This document shows positions 42,506-51,069 of a stretch of 64,000 bases of DNA, one piece after another. The stretch is taken from the NCBI GenBank assembly GCA_025358305.1, contig JANYJZ010000033.1:1-64000 (forward strand), given 5' to 3'. A program made the translations under genes and the position numbers. This DNA is from Ignavibacteriota bacterium (GTDB lineage: Bacteria > Bacteroidota > Ignavibacteria > UBA10030 > SZUA-254). Each line of letters starts with the position of its first letter. Positions within the stretch are counted from its first letter, which is position 1. The notes below the pieces were generated by a model that was not told the DNA's origin, did not search any database, and saw only the letters and a program-made list of their open reading frames with translations.

Positions 42506-42997
42506 TCAGTGTTCTTCTGATCCCGACGTCGGGTTCACGCGCATGTGTCGCTTCATGCTCTCCTGGCGTAATTTCCGGGCAACCTTGGAGACAAGCTCGT
42601 TGATCTGAGAGAGGAGCCGTGCGCTCCCACCGGCCGGCACGTCGACGATAGAGGAGGCTCTGAGCCCCGCTGTTCCCTCATGTGTGCCCCGCGCTCCTGC
42701 CCCGGCTGTCGCGTCGATCTGAAACGTAAAAAGGTCCTCCTGGCGCTGGGCGAGCGGCGTGAGCTTGACCGAAATGATATTGTCTGACCCCGATCGAAAT
42801 TTCCATCCGGTACGCTCGACACTGAGCCGAAGGACATCATGCACCGCTTCCTCGGTCAGGCCGTATGCGACGGACACGCTGTCGAGCGGCTCCAAGAGTA
42901 CGGTAAGATCCTCCGGCGCCTTCGGGGAGCGGATATCCTGCGAAGAAGCATATCCCCAGCAGATCAGAACGAGACAGCAGACGACCAAGCCCTTCAT
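42506..42997 (-). CDS. Secreted protein of unknown function
   Basis: A 163-residue protein with a signal peptide ([19 protein letters not shown]). The mature part looks like a small alpha-beta domain ([20 protein letters not shown]), a polar middle with [12 protein letters not shown], and a basic C-terminal helix ([20 protein letters not shown] in form). No family was recognised. It lies 25 bp after the A-type carrier gene and could be the tail of the SUF transcript, or separately expressed. Confidence 0.6.
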
Positions 42998-43795: not shown

Positions 43796-44248
43796 CTACT
43801 CGGTCGACACGACCGCTTCGTTCGAGACGAGGCCGGCGTGGAGCGTATGCCAGGCGAGGCTCGCGCATTTGACCCTGGCGGGGAACTCCGAAACGCCGCC
43901 GAAGACCGCCAGCTTGCCGAACTCTTCCGCCTCTTCGCCGGGGTTCAGTGCGCCGGTGACGAGCCGGTGGAAGCGTTCGAACATGGCTTGTGCTTCCGCT
44001 TTCGTCTTCCCGATCAGGAGCGAGCTCATCACCGACGCCGAGGCCTTCGAGATCGCGCACCCCGCCCCTTCAAAACTGATGTCCTCGATGAAGTCCCCCT
44101 TGAACTTCAGATAGACCGTGTAGTGGTCGCCGCATAGGGGGTTGTAGCCGTCGACCGCCCGGTCGGCATGCTCCATCTTCCGAAAGTTCCGCGGACTCTT
44201 GTTGTGATCGAGGATCGTCTCCTGGTAGAGCTCTCTGAGGTCCGACAT
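43796..44248 (-). CDS. sufU: Iron-sulfur/zinc SufU scaffold or sulfur-transfer protein
   Basis: A 150-residue SufU. The three ligands C39 (NPLCGD), C64 (GAGCAIS) and C128 (VKCASLAWHTL) are in place, and the FPARVKCASLAW block is typical. SufU accepts sulfur from SufS, and zinc binding is known for the family. The ATG shares a base with the sufS stop (TGATG), giving tight coupling. Confidence 0.94.
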   Translation of the reverse strand: MSDLRELYQETILDHNKSPRNFRKMEHADRAVDGYNPLCGDHYTVYLKFKGDFIEDISFEGAGCAISKASASVMSSLLIGKTKAEAQAMFERFHRLVTGALNPGEEAEEFGKLAVFGGVSEFPARVKCASLAWHTLHAGLVSNEAVVSTE

Positions 44249-45513
44249 CAGCCCAGGACCTCGATCGCGTGACGGACACTTCGGACGAGCACGTCGATCT
44301 CTTCAAAGGTGTTGTAGAGCGCGAACGACGCCCGCGCGGTGGCGGGGATGCCGAACCGGAGCATGGTCGGCTGGGCGCAGTGGTGGCCGGTGCGGATCGC
44401 GACGCCGTCGCTGTCGAGGATCGTCCCGATGTCGTGCGGATGGATGTTCTCCACGACGAACGACACGACGCCCGCCTTCTGGAGGGCCGTACCGATGATC
44501 CTGACGCCCGGGACCGCTTCGAGGGCTTCGGTGGCCCGAGCGACGAGCGCGTGCTCATGGTCCCGGACCGCATCCATATCGAGCGCGGCGAGGTAGTCGA
44601 CCGCCGCACCGAGGCCGATGCCGCCGGCGATGTTCGGCGTCCCGGCTTCGAACCGGAACGGCAGATCGTTGAAGATCGTCTTTTCGAACGTCACCGACTT
44701 GATCATGTCTCCCCCGGATTGGTAGGGAGGCAGCGATTCCAGGATCTTCTTCTTCCCGTAGAGGATGCCGACGCCCGTCGGGCCGTACATCTTGTGGCCG
44801 GAGAAGGCGTAGAAATCGGCGTCGAGGTCCTGGACGTCGACCGACATGTGGGGCACCGCTTGGGCGCCGTCGATCAAGACGTCCGCGCCGGCGCGGTGCG
44901 CCAGCGCGGTCATCTCCTTGACGGGGTTGATCGTCCCGAGCGCGTTGGAAACGTGCGAGAGCGCGACGATGCGCACCTTGCCCCCCTGCAAGAGATGTTC
45001 ATAGTCGTCAAGGAGGAGCTCCCCGCGGTCGTTCATCGGGACCACCCGGAGCCGGGCTTGGCGCTGTTCGCACAGGAGCTGCCACGGCACGATGTTCGAA
45101 TGATGCTCGAGCGCCGAGATGACGATCTCGTCGCCGGGCCGGAGCGAGGCTCCGAGCGTCGCGGCGACAAGATTGATCGCCTCGGTCGTTCCCCGAACGA
45201 AGATGAGTTCCTGCGTGAGGCTCGCGTTGATCCACCCTCGAATCTTCGAGCGCGCGACCTCGTACGCCTTCGTCGCCTCTTCGCTCAGGTGGTGGACGCC
45301 CCTGTGGATGTTCGCGTTCTGCGTACGATAATAGCGCGACGTCGCGTCGATGACCGAGACTGGCTTCTGGCTCGTGGCGGCGTTGTCGAGATAGACGAGC
45401 GCGTGGCCGTTCACGCGCTCGGCGAGGATCGGAAAATCGCTGCGTACACGCGGCACATCCAAGGCTTCGGCACTGTGCTGTTTCATCGGGGCGATATCGT
45501 GCTTGACGCTCAT
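44248..45513 (-). CDS. sufS: SufS cysteine desulfurase (group II)
   Basis: A 421-residue PLP enzyme. The PLP-binding lysine is K241 (AFSGHKMYGP), and the sulfur-carrying C379 lies in the short RTGHHCAQP loop, typical of group II enzymes. The N-terminus (VRSDFPILAERVNGHALVYLDNAATSQKP) is standard. It mobilises sulfur for the SufBCD scaffold. The start overlaps the sufD stop in an ATGA. It is the second of two cysteine desulfurases in this operon. Confidence 0.96.
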   Translation of the reverse strand: MSVKHDIAPMKQHSAEALDVPRVRSDFPILAERVNGHALVYLDNAATSQKPVSVIDATSRYYRTQNANIHRGVHHLSEEATKAYEVARSKIRGWINASLTQELIFVRGTTEAINLVAATLGASLRPGDEIVISALEHHSNIVPWQLLCEQRQARLRVVPMNDRGELLLDDYEHLLQGGKVRIVALSHVSNALGTINPVKEMTALAHRAGADVLIDGAQAVPHMSVDVQDLDADFYAFSGHKMYGPTGVGILYGKKKILESLPPYQSGGDMIKSVTFEKTIFNDLPFRFEAGTPNIAGGIGLGAAVDYLAALDMDAVRDHEHALVARATEALEAVPGVRIIGTALQKAGVVSFVVENIHPHDIGTILDSDGVAIRTGHHCAQPTMLRFGIPATARASFALYNTFEEIDVLVRSVRHAIEVLG

Positions 45514-46871
45514 AGACCTTCGAGTCGGCGTCCTTCGTGGAGCTGTTTCAAGATCAAGCGGTCGAGCGCGGCCCGGACCGGCTCGATCTTCACCCGGCCG
45601 GTGACATCGCTCGCGAATGCGTAGGTAAGGATGTCCCGAGCGAGTTCGATGCCGATCCCCCGGGACCGGAGGTAGAACACGGCCTCCGCGTCAAGATACC
45701 CCACGGTCGCGCCGTGCGTGCACTTCACGTCGTCGGCGAAGATCTCCAATTGCGGCTTCGTGTCGATCGTCGCCAGATCGGACAGAAGAAGCGTCTTGTT
45801 CGTCTGCTTCGCGTCGGTCTTCTGGGCGTCCTTCCGGACGAAGATCTTCCCGTTGAAGACACCGCGGGACGAGCCGTCGAGGATCGACTTGTAGAGTTCG
45901 TGACTGTTGCAATGGGCCGTGGCGTGGTCGATCGTCGTGTGATTGTCGATGTGCTGACGGCCGGTCGAGAGCGACAGGCCGTTCAAGGTGCACTCGACGC
46001 CCTGGCCCTCCATGACGGAGGTGATGTTGTTCCGTACGATTGCGCCGCCCATCGCGAACGAATTCGAGGTGTAGTTGCTCTTTGCCGCCATGGAGACGTG
46101 CGCCGAACCGACGTGGAACGCGTTCAAGGACTCTTCTTGGACTTTGTCATGCTCCACGACCGCGCCCTCGGCCAAGACGACCTCGGTCACCGCGTTGGTG
46201 AAGTAGCTGTTCTCCGCCAAGGCCGCGTAGCGTTCGACGACGAAGCAGCGGCTGTTCCTCCCCGCCACGAAGAGGTTTCTCGGATGGGCGACGAAGGGAA
46301 CCGTGCGCCCGGTGGCGAGGTAGAGGACATAGATCGGTTCGTCCCAGCTGACGCCGTCCGGTATGTGGACGAACGCGCCGTCCCTCAAAAATCCCGTGTT
46401 GAGCGCCGTAAAGGCGTCTTGGTCGTACCGCGCGTGCCTCGCCGTGTGCCGGAGGGCCGCGGCGTCCCCCGACGTCAAGGCCCGGGCAAGACTCATGATC
46501 GCTCCGCCAGAGGGTACGGAGCGGACGGTGGAGAATCTTTCCGAGAACTCGCCGTCGACAAAGACGAGGCGGTTCGCGTCGAGGCCGGCGAAGGTCCAAC
46601 GCGCGATATCGGCCGCACTCACCGTGCCGGGGGTACCGGCGGCGTAGGGGGCGCGCGCGATCGGTTGGACGTCCGTGAAACGCCATTCCTCGTCGTGCGT
46701 CGTCGGGAAGCCCGTGGACGCAAAGTGCGCGATGGCCTCCTTGCGGACCGCATGAATCGGCGAGGCGGACTCCCCGTTGAGCCCCCTCTCGAAGGACCGG
46801 AACGCCGAGAGATACTGTTCGATCTGTGCGCCCTGCCGCTCTCCGGCGGGCTTCGCAGCCTTTTCCACCAT
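45510..46871 (-). CDS. sufD: SufD subunit of the SufBCD scaffold
   Basis: A 453-residue beta-helix protein matching the SUFBD domain from about residue 210 (VEHDKVQEESLNAFHVG, DVKCTHGATVGYLDAEAVFYLRSRGI in form), with the N-terminal RKEAIAHFASTGFPTTHDEEWRFTDV. SufD partners SufB and SufC. The ATG at 46871 shares a base with the sufC stop (TAATG). Confidence 0.95.
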   Translation of the reverse strand: MVEKAAKPAGERQGAQIEQYLSAFRSFERGLNGESASPIHAVRKEAIAHFASTGFPTTHDEEWRFTDVQPIARAPYAAGTPGTVSAADIARWTFAGLDANRLVFVDGEFSERFSTVRSVPSGGAIMSLARALTSGDAAALRHTARHARYDQDAFTALNTGFLRDGAFVHIPDGVSWDEPIYVLYLATGRTVPFVAHPRNLFVAGRNSRCFVVERYAALAENSYFTNAVTEVVLAEGAVVEHDKVQEESLNAFHVGSAHVSMAAKSNYTSNSFAMGGAIVRNNITSVMEGQGVECTLNGLSLSTGRQHIDNHTTIDHATAHCNSHELYKSILDGSSRGVFNGKIFVRKDAQKTDAKQTNKTLLLSDLATIDTKPQLEIFADDVKCTHGATVGYLDAEAVFYLRSRGIGIELARDILTYAFASDVTGRVKIEPVRAALDRLILKQLHEGRRLEGL

Positions 46872-47629
46872 TACGCCTTCACCTGTTCTTCTTCCTTGAG
46901 CCAGTCGTACCCGCGCTCCTCAAGCTCGAGGGCGAGTTCCTTCGGGCCCGACTTCACGATGCGGCCCTCCACTAGAACGTGGACGACGTCGGGCACGATA
47001 TAGTTCAGCAACCGCTGGTAGTGCGTCACGACGACGACCGCGTTCTCCTTCGTCCGGAGCTTGTTAACGCCGTCGGCGACGATCCTGAGGGCGTCGATGT
47101 CGAGCCCGGAGTCGGTCTCGTCGAGGATGGCGAGCTTCGGGTCGAGGACGGCCATCTGAAAGATCTCGTTGCGCTTCTTCTCGCCGCCGGAGAACCCTTC
47201 GTTCACGGGCCGCGACAAGAGCGTCTTGTCCATCTCGAGGATGCCCATCTTCTGCTTCACCATCGCGAGAAAATCGACGGCGTCGAGTTCCGCGAGACCC
47301 CGGTACTTTCTCACGGAGTTGAGCGCGGCCTTCAGGAAATAGGTGTTGCTCACCCCGGGGATCTCGACCGGGTACTGGAACGCGAGGAAGATCCCCTCGC
47401 GCGCGCGGTCCTCGGGACTCATCTCGAGCAAGTCCTTGCCGTTGTAGCGGACCTCGCCGGCGGTCACCTCGTAGGCCTCGCGGCCGGCGAGGACCTGTGC
47501 GAGCGTGCTCTTGCCGGAGCCGTTGGGTCCCATGATGGCGTGGACCTCACCCGCGTTCACCTTCAAGTGAACGCCAGTAAGGATTTCATTACCGTTGACC
47601 GAAGCGTGGAGGTTCTTGATCTCTAACAT
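46871..47629 (-). CDS. sufC: SufC ATPase
   Basis: A 252-residue ABC-type ATPase of the SUF scaffold. It has Walker A GPNGSGKSTLA near residue 36, FQYPVEIPGV and ABC signature GFSGGEKKRNEI, Walker B LAILDETDSGLDIDAL and the switch H in VVVTHYQRLL. The ATG at 47629 starts the domain; a few extra in-frame residues upstream are not needed. It lies 33 bp from sufB. Confidence 0.97.
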   Translation of the reverse strand: MLEIKNLHASVNGNEILTGVHLKVNAGEVHAIMGPNGSGKSTLAQVLAGREAYEVTAGEVRYNGKDLLEMSPEDRAREGIFLAFQYPVEIPGVSNTYFLKAALNSVRKYRGLAELDAVDFLAMVKQKMGILEMDKTLLSRPVNEGFSGGEKKRNEIFQMAVLDPKLAILDETDSGLDIDALRIVADGVNKLRTKENAVVVVTHYQRLLNYIVPDVVHVLVEGRIVKSGPKELALELEERGYDWLKEEEQVKA

Positions 47630-47662
47630 GTGGTTCTGTCGTCCTTTGTTCATTGTCAATGG

Positions 47663-49108
47663 TTAACCGACGCTGCCTTCGAGGCTGATGCCGAGGAGTT
47701 TTTGGGCTTCCACGGCGAATTCCATCGGGAGTTCGCGGAACACCTCCTTGCAGAAGCCGTTGACGATCATGTTCACGGCGTCCTCGGAGGAAAGTCCCCG
47801 TTGTTTGCAATAGAAGATCTGGTCCTCGCCGATCTTAGAGGTTGACGCCTCGTGCTCGACCTTCGACGAGGTGTTCTTCACTTCGATGTAGGGGAAGGTG
47901 TGCGCGCCGCACGTGTCCCCGAGGAGGAGCGAATCGCACTGCGAGAAGTTCCGGGCGTTCGTGGCGCCCTTCTGGATCTGGACGAGGCCGCGGTAGGAGT
48001 TGTTCCCGTGCCCGCCGGAGATCCCTTTCGAGACGATCGTGCTCTTCGTGTTCTTGCCGATGTGGATCATCTTCGTCCCGGTATCGGCCTGCTGGCGGTT
48101 GTTCGTCACCGCGACGGAGTAGAACTCGCCGACGGAGTTGTCCCCCTTGAGGATGACGCCGGGGTACTTCCAGGTGATCGCCGAGCCGGTCTCCACCTGG
48201 GTCCAGGAGATCTTCGAGTTCGCGCCCGAGCAGATGCCGCGCTTGGTGACGAAATTGTAGATGCCCCCCTTGCCTTCCTTGTCCCCGGGGTACCAGTTCT
48301 GGACCGTGGAGTACTTGATCTGCGCGTTGGCCAAGGCCACGAGCTCGACGACCGCGGCATGGAGCTGGTTCTTGTCGCGCATCGGGGCCGTGCACCCCTC
48401 CAAGTAGCTCACGTAGCTCCCTTCGTCGGCCACGATGAGGGTCCGTTCGAACTGGCCCGTCTCCGCGGCGTTGATCCGGAAGTAGGTCGAGAGTTCCATC
48501 GGGCAGCGCACCCCCTTCGGGATGTAGCAGAACGAGCCGTCCGAAAAGACGGCGGAATTGAGCGCGGCGAAGAAGTTGTCGGTCTGGGGCACGACGGAGC
48601 CGAGGTACTGCCGGATGAGCTCGGGATGCTCGCGCACCGCTTCGGAGAACGAACAGAAGATGATGCCGAGCTCGCTCAGGTTCTTCTTGAACGTCGTGGC
48701 CACCGAGACGCTGTCGAACACCGCGTCCACGGCGACGCCCGAGAGGCGCTTTTGCTCCTCGAGGGAGATGCCGAGCTTCTCGTACGTCCTGCGAAGCTCG
48801 GGATCGACCTCGTCGAGGCTGTTGAGCGAGATCTTCTGTTTCGGCGCGGAATAATAGATCGCGTCCTGGTAGTCGATTTTGGGATAGTGGACGTTCGGCC
48901 AGGTGGGCTCGGTCATGGTCTTCCAGTGGGCGAACGCCTTGAGGCGCCACGCGAGCATCCACGCCGGCTCCTGCTTCTTCGATGAGATGAGCCGGACGGT
49001 GTCCTCGCTCAGGCCCCGAGGGGCGCTGTCCGCCTCGATGTCGGTGACGAACCCCCACTTGTACTCTTGATTGGTGAGTTGCTCTATGCTGTCGTTTTCT
49101 TTGGTCAT
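47663..49108 (-). CDS. sufB: SufB, cluster-building subunit of SufBCD
   Basis: A 481-residue SUFBD-domain protein. Conserved blocks include [11 protein letters not shown]-like [50 protein letters not shown] in form, and [15 protein letters not shown] with QLRGLS-like [19 protein letters not shown]. SufB is the site of cluster assembly. The ATG at 49108 matches the family start; the upstream open frame runs into the previous gene. Confidence 0.97.
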
Positions 49109-49131: not shown

Positions 49132-49449
49132 TTATGATGCCTTTGCCGCGGCGGCGGCCACGGGGGCCTTCTCCACCTTGGGGAGCGCGAACTCGGGGTA
49201 GTCGAGGCGCCACGACTGGTGGTCGATGCGCTTGAAGATCCCCTTCTCTTCGAACGCCGCTCCCACCAGGATCGCCACGCGTTCGGCGTCCTGATACTTC
49301 AGCTTCATGCGGTGTTCCTGGAGGTAGAGCATCACGCCGTAATGGAAGTCCCGGAAGAAGAAGTTCGACTGATGGATGAGCGTGAACTTCGTCTTGAGGA
49401 ACTTCAGGAATTCAGGTGAGTTGCTGATGATGATGTCGGCTTCTTTCAT
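49132..49449 (-). CDS. Unrecognised 105-residue protein inside the SUF operon
   Basis: The protein starts [20 protein letters not shown] and is rich in aromatic and charged residues ([19 protein letters not shown]). It ends in an Ala-rich tail ([14 protein letters not shown]). No Cys is visible, so it is not itself an iron-sulfur carrier. The middle, [23 protein letters not shown], looks helical. Its ATG overlaps the iscS stop (ATGA), and sufB begins 23 bp after its stop, so it is co-transcribed and coupled. I do not recognise a family. By position it could regulate or assist desulfurase-to-scaffold transfer. Confidence 0.75.
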
Positions 49450-50657
49450 GGGGTCACGTCTTCTTTTGATGAATGGATCGTTTCTTGGAGCATGCGGTAC
49501 GCCGGGCTCGAGGCGCGGAGCTGTTTCACGGCCTCGATGACACGCTTGACGACGAAATCGACCTCTTCGTCCGTCGTGAACCGGCTGAGCCCGAAGCGCA
49601 AAGCCGAGTGAACGCGTCCTTCGGGGATCCGGAGCGCCTTCAGGACGTGCGACGGCTGCGGGTCGACCGAGCTGCAGGCCGACCCGGTGGAAACGGCGAT
49701 ATCTTTCAGGCTCATCATGAGCGTCGTATCCTCGACGCCCAGAAAGCTCACATTGAGGTTCTGCGGAAGGCGCGCCGACCTGGGGCCGTTGAGCACCACG
49801 CCCCCGAGCTCCGACTCGAACGAGCGAAGCATCCGGTCGCGCATGCCAGAGAGGCGCGCGGCCTCCTCGTTCATCGATCCGGCGGCGATCTCGAGCGCTG
49901 CGCCCAAGCCGACGATGCCGGGCACGTTGAGCGTCCCGGAACGGATCCCGCGCTCCTGTCCGCCGCCTTCGATCAAGGGTGCGAACTTCGGTTTTCGCTT
50001 GACGCTGCGGAACGCGAGAGCGCCGATCCCCTTCGGGGCGTAGAACTTGTGGCCGGAGAAGGAGAGCGCGTCGAGTTGCATCAGCGCCATGTTCACCGGG
50101 ACCTTGCCGACGGCCTGTGTCGCGTCGGAATGGAACAGCACGTTCTTCTCGAGGCAGATCTGCCCGATGGCTTCCATCGGCTGGATCGTCCCGATCTCGT
50201 TGTTCGCGTACATGATCGAGACGAGGATGGTCTCCGCTGCGATCGCGGCGCGGAGTTCCTCCGGACGGACAAATCCGTCCTGGTCAACGCCGAGATAGGT
50301 CACCCGGCACCCGCGCTTCTCGAGCGTCCGGCACGTCTCCAAGACCGACTTGTGCTCGGTCTGCAGCGTGATGATGTGGTTCCCCTGCTGTCGAAGCCCG
50401 TCGGCGATCCCCTTGATGTAGAGGTTGTTCGCCTCGCTCGCGCCGGCGGTGAAGACGACGTCTTTGGCGAGTGCGCCGATTTGCTTCGCGATCGATGCGC
50501 GCGCGCCCTCGACGGCCGTTTCCGCGACCCAGCCGTACTGATGCTGCCGGCTCGCGGGGTTGCCGAAGTCTTGGGTGAAGAACGGGAGCATCCGTTCGAG
50601 GACCTTGGGGTCCACGGGGGTCGTCGCGTGAGAGTCCATATAGACCGGGATGCGCAC
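49446..50657 (-). CDS. IscS/NifS-type cysteine desulfurase (group I)
   Basis: A 403-residue PLP enzyme. The PLP lysine is K204 (SFSGHKFYAPKG), and the mobile catalytic cysteine is C328 in the longer STGSACSSVDPQPSH loop of group I enzymes. The N-terminus reads VYMDSHATTPVDPKVLERMLPFF in form. It provides sulfur for cluster assembly or tRNA thiolation. It is separated from the rrf2 regulator by only 5 bp and coupled to the unknown 105-residue gene. Confidence 0.95.
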   Translation of the reverse strand: MRIPVYMDSHATTPVDPKVLERMLPFFTQDFGNPASRQHQYGWVAETAVEGARASIAKQIGALAKDVVFTAGASEANNLYIKGIADGLRQQGNHIITLQTEHKSVLETCRTLEKRGCRVTYLGVDQDGFVRPEELRAAIAAETILVSIMYANNEIGTIQPMEAIGQICLEKNVLFHSDATQAVGKVPVNMALMQLDALSFSGHKFYAPKGIGALAFRSVKRKPKFAPLIEGGGQERGIRSGTLNVPGIVGLGAALEIAAGSMNEEAARLSGMRDRMLRSFESELGGVVLNGPRSARLPQNLNVSFLGVEDTTLMMSLKDIAVSTGSACSSVDPQPSHVLKALRIPEGRVHSALRFGLSRFTTDEEVDFVVKRVIEAVKQLRASSPAYRMLQETIHSSKEDVTP

Positions 50658-50661
50658 GGGG

Positions 50662-51069
50662 CTAGATCATCTGTGTGATGGAAAGCTCTTCGAACACCTT
50701 GTTAATGCTCTCCTGGAGCTTTACAAGGGGATCCTTGATCGTACAGGTGGAATGGATGTTGCAGTCCTCGGCGCCGGCCGCCTCGCACTGGACGATGGTG
50801 ACGTTCGGCTGGCCTTCGATCGCGCTGATGATCGCCGATACTTTGATCTCGTTCGGGTTTCGGGCGAGGATGTATCCGCCGTGCACCCCCTGATACGACG
50901 AAATGAACCCCTCCTTGACGAGGCGCTGCATGACCTTCGCCATAAGCTCGTAGGAAATGTGGTAGGTGTCGGCGATCTCTTTGGCAGTGAACATCCTGCC
51001 GCCATGGCCGGAGGCCATGTGGCGTATCGCGATCAACCCGTATTCCACTTTTTTGGAGAGTTGGAACAT
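50662..51069 (-). CDS. Rrf2-family transcriptional regulator (IscR/SufR-like)
   Basis: A 135-residue winged helix-turn-helix repressor. DNA-binding elements are YHISYELMAKVMQRLVKEG and the wing GVHGGYIL. Three cysteines, C95, C103 and C109, could bind a [2Fe-2S] cluster; the first gap is seven residues rather than the five seen in classical IscR. It is the first gene of the SUF operon and probably represses it when clusters are sufficient, through the palindrome at 51080-51092. Confidence 0.93.
   Translation of the reverse strand: MFQLSKKVEYGLIAIRHMASGHGGRMFTAKEIADTYHISYELMAKVMQRLVKEGFISSYQGVHGGYILARNPNEIKVSAIISAIEGQPNVTIVQCEAAGAEDCNIHSTCTIKDPLVKLQESINKVFEELSITQMI

Follow-up and report, generated by a model that had tools for sequence, protein, structure and literature searches.

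The SUF and ISC machineries for Fe-S cluster assembly are usually treated as separate, and the accessory factors of this assembly are few in number. IscX, CyaY and SufT are among those discussed in a review (PMC8593673). The small helix-turn-helix protein IscX binds IscS in competition with CyaY (PMC5801593), and an acidic patch is used by IscX as well as by CyaY (PMC2854127). We analysed a short gene, hereafter X, that is located within a SUF operon on a stretch of 64,000 nucleotides from an Ignavibacteriota bacterium (this whole stretch is called the window), together with its homologues and their genomic neighbourhoods. A role in Fe-S biogenesis would give a function to what is otherwise a class-wide orphan gene, and a family associated with A-type-carrier loci as well as with SUF and ISC would suggest that these machineries have a control point in common.

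X spans positions 49132-49449 on the minus strand and counts 105 codons from its ATG. The order of the operon, entirely on this strand, is rrf2-iscS-X-sufB-sufC-sufD-sufS-sufU-DUF59-A-type carrier, and sodA is found further on. The head gene encodes an Rrf2-family (IscR-like) regulator (50662-51069) in which the three Cys C95, C103 and C109 are invariant in the alignment, as in cluster-binding IscR. The class I cysteine desulfurase gene iscS (49446-50657) follows, and the ORF coordinates confirm what the initial annotation had described: X shares 4 bp with the end of iscS (49446-49449, ATG/TGA), precedes the sufB start at 49108 by 23 bp, and encodes no Cys. Beyond sufB (47663-49108) are sufC (46871-47659), sufD (45510-46871), sufS, encoding a class II cysteine desulfurase (44248-45513), sufU (43796-44248), a gene for a SufT/DUF59-like Fe-S assembly protein (PF01883; 43404-43739) and the A-type carrier gene (PF01521; 43023-43391). 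Among NCBIfam models, SufS scores best not with the general SufS model but with that for family 2A encapsulin cargo cysteine desulfurases, at 655 bits, which is under the cutoff of 800. A 163-aa ORF lacking any Pfam match (42506-42997, minus strand) lies between the A-type carrier gene and sodA.

X is a real gene, far beyond chance, because homologues at 21-69% identity, with frames open in nearly all genomes, occupy the same position and share invariant residues. For the protein, Pfam and NCBIfam yielded no match and the PDB no sequence relative, and 30 aligned relatives searched against Pfam, NCBIfam, PHROGs and PADLOC gave scattered chance matches alone. A match to an unrelated known family was thus looked for in all five collections and none was found. 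Searches of plasmid and viral collections returned nothing, and we found no paper on the gene in the literature. Homologues were detected by tblastn in 58 of 395 genomes of the phylum, all of the class to which the window belongs. A profile built from 30 members recovered the same 58 genomes plus three matches elsewhere in the phylum, which we judged to be chance (E 0.003-0.008, all partial, two of the three with internal stops). Within the phylum, X is restricted to this one class, where the profile detects it in 165 of 294 genomes, nearly always in single copy. These profile searches covered the phylum; beyond it, genome contigs were scanned with a pattern, which picks up close relatives. 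The named relatives are Ignavibacteriae or Ignavibacteriales metagenome-assembled genomes. Inheritance looks largely vertical, as the X trees mostly track family assignments. In two families (f13 and f9; e.g. L013, L020, L022, L032), a short tail, conserved and similar to PG[DK]P[FS], follows the domain, and members from f3 and f14 have Pro/Ala-rich tails.

We then read 80 X loci, calling the neighbouring genes from ORFs and phmmer seeds. A Fe-S biogenesis gene directly adjoins X on the same strand in 77 of these 80 loci, which are phylogenetically non-independent. Directly upstream is iscS (39 loci) or rrf2 (18 loci); directly downstream is the A-type carrier gene (53 loci), the direct neighbour in most families other than that of the window, or sufB (9), iscU (6) or sufC (1). 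Wherever a locus contains iscS, this gene immediately precedes X (39/39), often overlapping it or within about 30 bp, and rrf2 is present within the locus in 47 of 80 cases. Three operon types carry X, full ISC operons included: counted from annotated loci, there are about 21 SUF operons and 7 ISC operons, one further locus runs off its contig, and the remainder are mostly clusters of X, A-type carrier and sodA, frequently preceded by nuoLMN. Several ISC operons display the E. coli order with X inserted after iscS, and three of family f14 read rrf2-iscS-X-iscU-iscA-hscB-hscA-fdx-iscX (L167, L169, L170); in these three, hscA and fdx are separated by a SodA-like gene, and iscX is followed by a LON-domain gene. 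In genomes G208 and G164, X and IscX are encoded on one strand at a distance of about 5.5 kb. Another recurring arrangement, nuoL-nuoM-nuoN-rrf2-(iscS)-X-A-carrier-sodA-LON-domain gene, facing atpCD (L079-L081, L090, L103, L113 and similar), joins respiration, Fe-S assembly and superoxide defence.

These neighbourhoods bear out the initial annotation in its view that X, a gene not described before, is linked to Fe-S assembly and coupled to a desulfurase gene. It had also placed X among SUF components. The accessory link to Fe-S assembly stands and the limit to SUF does not, since about 59 of the 80 loci lie outside SUF operons, in ISC operons or in rrf2/X/A-carrier/sodA clusters. The homologues recovered outside SUF operons nevertheless stay in Fe-S loci, and the accessory idea thus survives in a broader form. 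The further suggestion that X chooses between two desulfurases is unsupported as a general role: X is kept without iscS in 41 of 80 loci, and it adjoins sufB in operons where SufS is the only desulfurase (L066, L071, L078, L082).

X is dispensable, and it has no single obligatory partner. X-less SUF operons of the same order begin rrf2-sufB, iscS being missing too (L173-L177, L179), and in other members of the class X is cleanly absent from rrf2-iscS-A-carrier or rrf2-iscS-iscU arrangements. We therefore rejected X as a core component of SUF or ISC, as X-less operons of both kinds exist in its own class. A SUF-only component is at odds with the seven ISC operons and with the three f14 genomes, among 18 X-bearing genomes tested, in which single-protein tblastn did not detect SufB. 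A strict genome-wide tie to IscS is contradicted by families f15, f17 and f10, which have a strong IscS but no X; a tie to the A-type carrier, by 5 of 12 tested X-bearing genomes in which tblastn with one query protein detected no such carrier; and a tie to Rrf2, by the 33 of 80 loci that keep X without it. As none of the partners is obligatory and X is cleanly missing from sister operons, we consider X to be an accessory factor, and an accessory role in Fe-S biogenesis is very probable.

Two members were modelled with AlphaFold2 (pLDDT 93.4 and 92.6), and both models show the succession H1-S1-H2-H3-S2-S3, from which X is predicted to be a compact, minimal winged helix with a short wing. Foldseek found no significant match to the model in the PDB, its weak matches being mostly winged-helix or related helix-turn-helix domains of both DNA-binding and protein-binding kinds. 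Across 80 members, conservation is complete or nearly so at S28, N29, F31, R33 and D34, and next highest at Y37, E56 and W80. The first five form the near-invariant S-N-x-F-x-R-D patch (codons 28-34; 49348-49368, minus strand), which spans strand 1 and the start of helix 2. The core, judged by sequence, has a mean net charge of +1.8 with few conserved acidic positions (D34, E56), which argues to some extent against an acidic patch for IscS binding, and Cys is almost absent from the family. What follows about surfaces and interfaces rests on sequence conservation and secondary structure.

In a winged helix, helix 3 is usually the one that reads DNA. X could accordingly be a DNA-binding regulator, or a partner of Rrf2, that would control its own Fe-S operon through the winged helix. 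The predicted fold is consistent with this reading, as are the proximity of Rrf2, which directly adjoins X in 18 of 80 loci and is nearby in many more, and the lack of an obligatory protein partner, expected of a free-standing regulator. However, helix 3 of X is poorly conserved and net acidic (2.0 bits, net charge -1.8, against 3.4 bits for the S1/H2 patch in matched loci), whereas the recognition helix of Rrf2 from the same loci, used as a control, is conserved and basic (3.0 bits, +1.9). This difference lowers the likelihood of canonical DNA reading and raises that of a protein-docking face. In addition, many loci have X without Rrf2 and many Rrf2 without X, and X has neither a separate dimerisation or sensor part nor, in nearly all members, any Cys. 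We consider a regulator unlikely, and infer that X is not a DNA reader and that its conserved face is a protein interface.

We propose instead that X is a winged-helix docking adaptor or modulator that would tune a step of cluster assembly which SUF and ISC have in common, a reading whose chances we hold to be even. X is made in a fixed position together with desulfurase, scaffold and carrier proteins, and its invariant S-N-x-F-x-R-D face would dock onto an assembly protein that both machineries possess, tuning sulfur mobilisation or cluster hand-over. The best candidate target would be a cysteine desulfurase or a U-type scaffold: as X is kept without a detected A-type carrier and without SufB, the desulfurase/U-protein step remains as common ground, and SUF-only and ISC-only carriers of X should still share these two proteins. 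Several observations fit the proposal less well. The absence of an obligatory partner would equally suit a free-standing regulator, and the variable helix 3 is compatible with non-canonical nucleic-acid binding. X also survives in loci that lack iscS, in a few f6 genomes (L110, L116) it follows nuoN and adjoins no Fe-S gene, and the A-type carrier absences depend on a single tblastn query.

The same f6 genomes bring up a second alternative, namely that X serves complex I or oxidative-stress proteins (Nuo, SodA) and not general Fe-S assembly. X often lies after nuoLMN and before sodA, and in one locus an insertion of NuoB-like and ferredoxin genes (L002:2534-3576) separates X from sufB. Against this, X of families f1-f5, f12 and f14 is in SUF or ISC operons with no nuoLMN beside it, and X-negative relatives retain rrf2-iscS-A-carrier-sodA, which renders such a dedicated service improbable.

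Still less probable is that X is a diverged IscX (YfhJ) occupying the CyaY/IscX site of IscS. The two proteins are of the same size class, IscX is likewise a helix-turn-helix protein binding IscS, and a match in YP-11-D spacing catches the eye. The homology suggested by eye was rejected on the basis of profile comparison (hhalign probability 0.3%) and by a gapless profile score no better than column shuffles (p = 0.39), the eye-caught register being negative overall, and X was therefore not filed as IscX. The IscX profile (PF04384) matched none of 30 X members at E ≤ 1, true IscX accompanies X within individual ISC operons (L167, L169, L170), and the X core is about neutral, whereas an acidic patch serves IscX and CyaY. 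Finally, a spurious ORF, conserved merely through its overlap with or placement between real genes, might be suggested by the shortness of X and by its frame running open into iscS, but is practically excluded by a confidently predicted fold and by 80 loci whose frames are open and which keep invariant residues in differing DNA contexts.

The docking modulator that we favor can be set against the described proteins. Rrf2/IscR regulators (PF02082) resemble X in having a winged-helix fold and in sharing its operons; they differ by their three Cys and their conserved basic recognition helix, both lacking in X, and hhalign found no sequence relation between the two. SufT (DUF59, PF01883) is, like X, a small non-core accessory protein often encoded in suf operons (PMC8593673). 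It belongs to a different family, with no match among 30 X members, and a distinct DUF59 gene sits in the very operon of X. CyaY/frataxin (PF01491) is comparable in kind, as a small protein that modulates cysteine desulfurase and cluster assembly, but is again a different family (no match to the window protein or to 30 members) and occurs in few members of the class, most of which also carry X. Neither IscX nor frataxin was found in the window genome; as a rule, X is not a substitute for them, since many f14 genomes hold all three. IscX is similar to X in being small, encoded in ISC operons, of helix-turn-helix type and non-core. Unlike IscX, X is modelled with an S2-S3 wing hairpin, has a core about neutral in charge, shows no detectable sequence relation, is encoded beside iscS and not at the operon end, is also present in SUF operons, and co-occurs with true IscX in f14. 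The fullest version of our proposal, to be taken as tentative and somewhat doubtful, is that X represents an undescribed, system-independent Fe-S modulator that serves both SUF and ISC in one class at the desulfurase/U-protein step, through a winged-helix face unrelated to IscX or frataxin. By analogy, X may act as IscX does, as an adaptor, with a different face.
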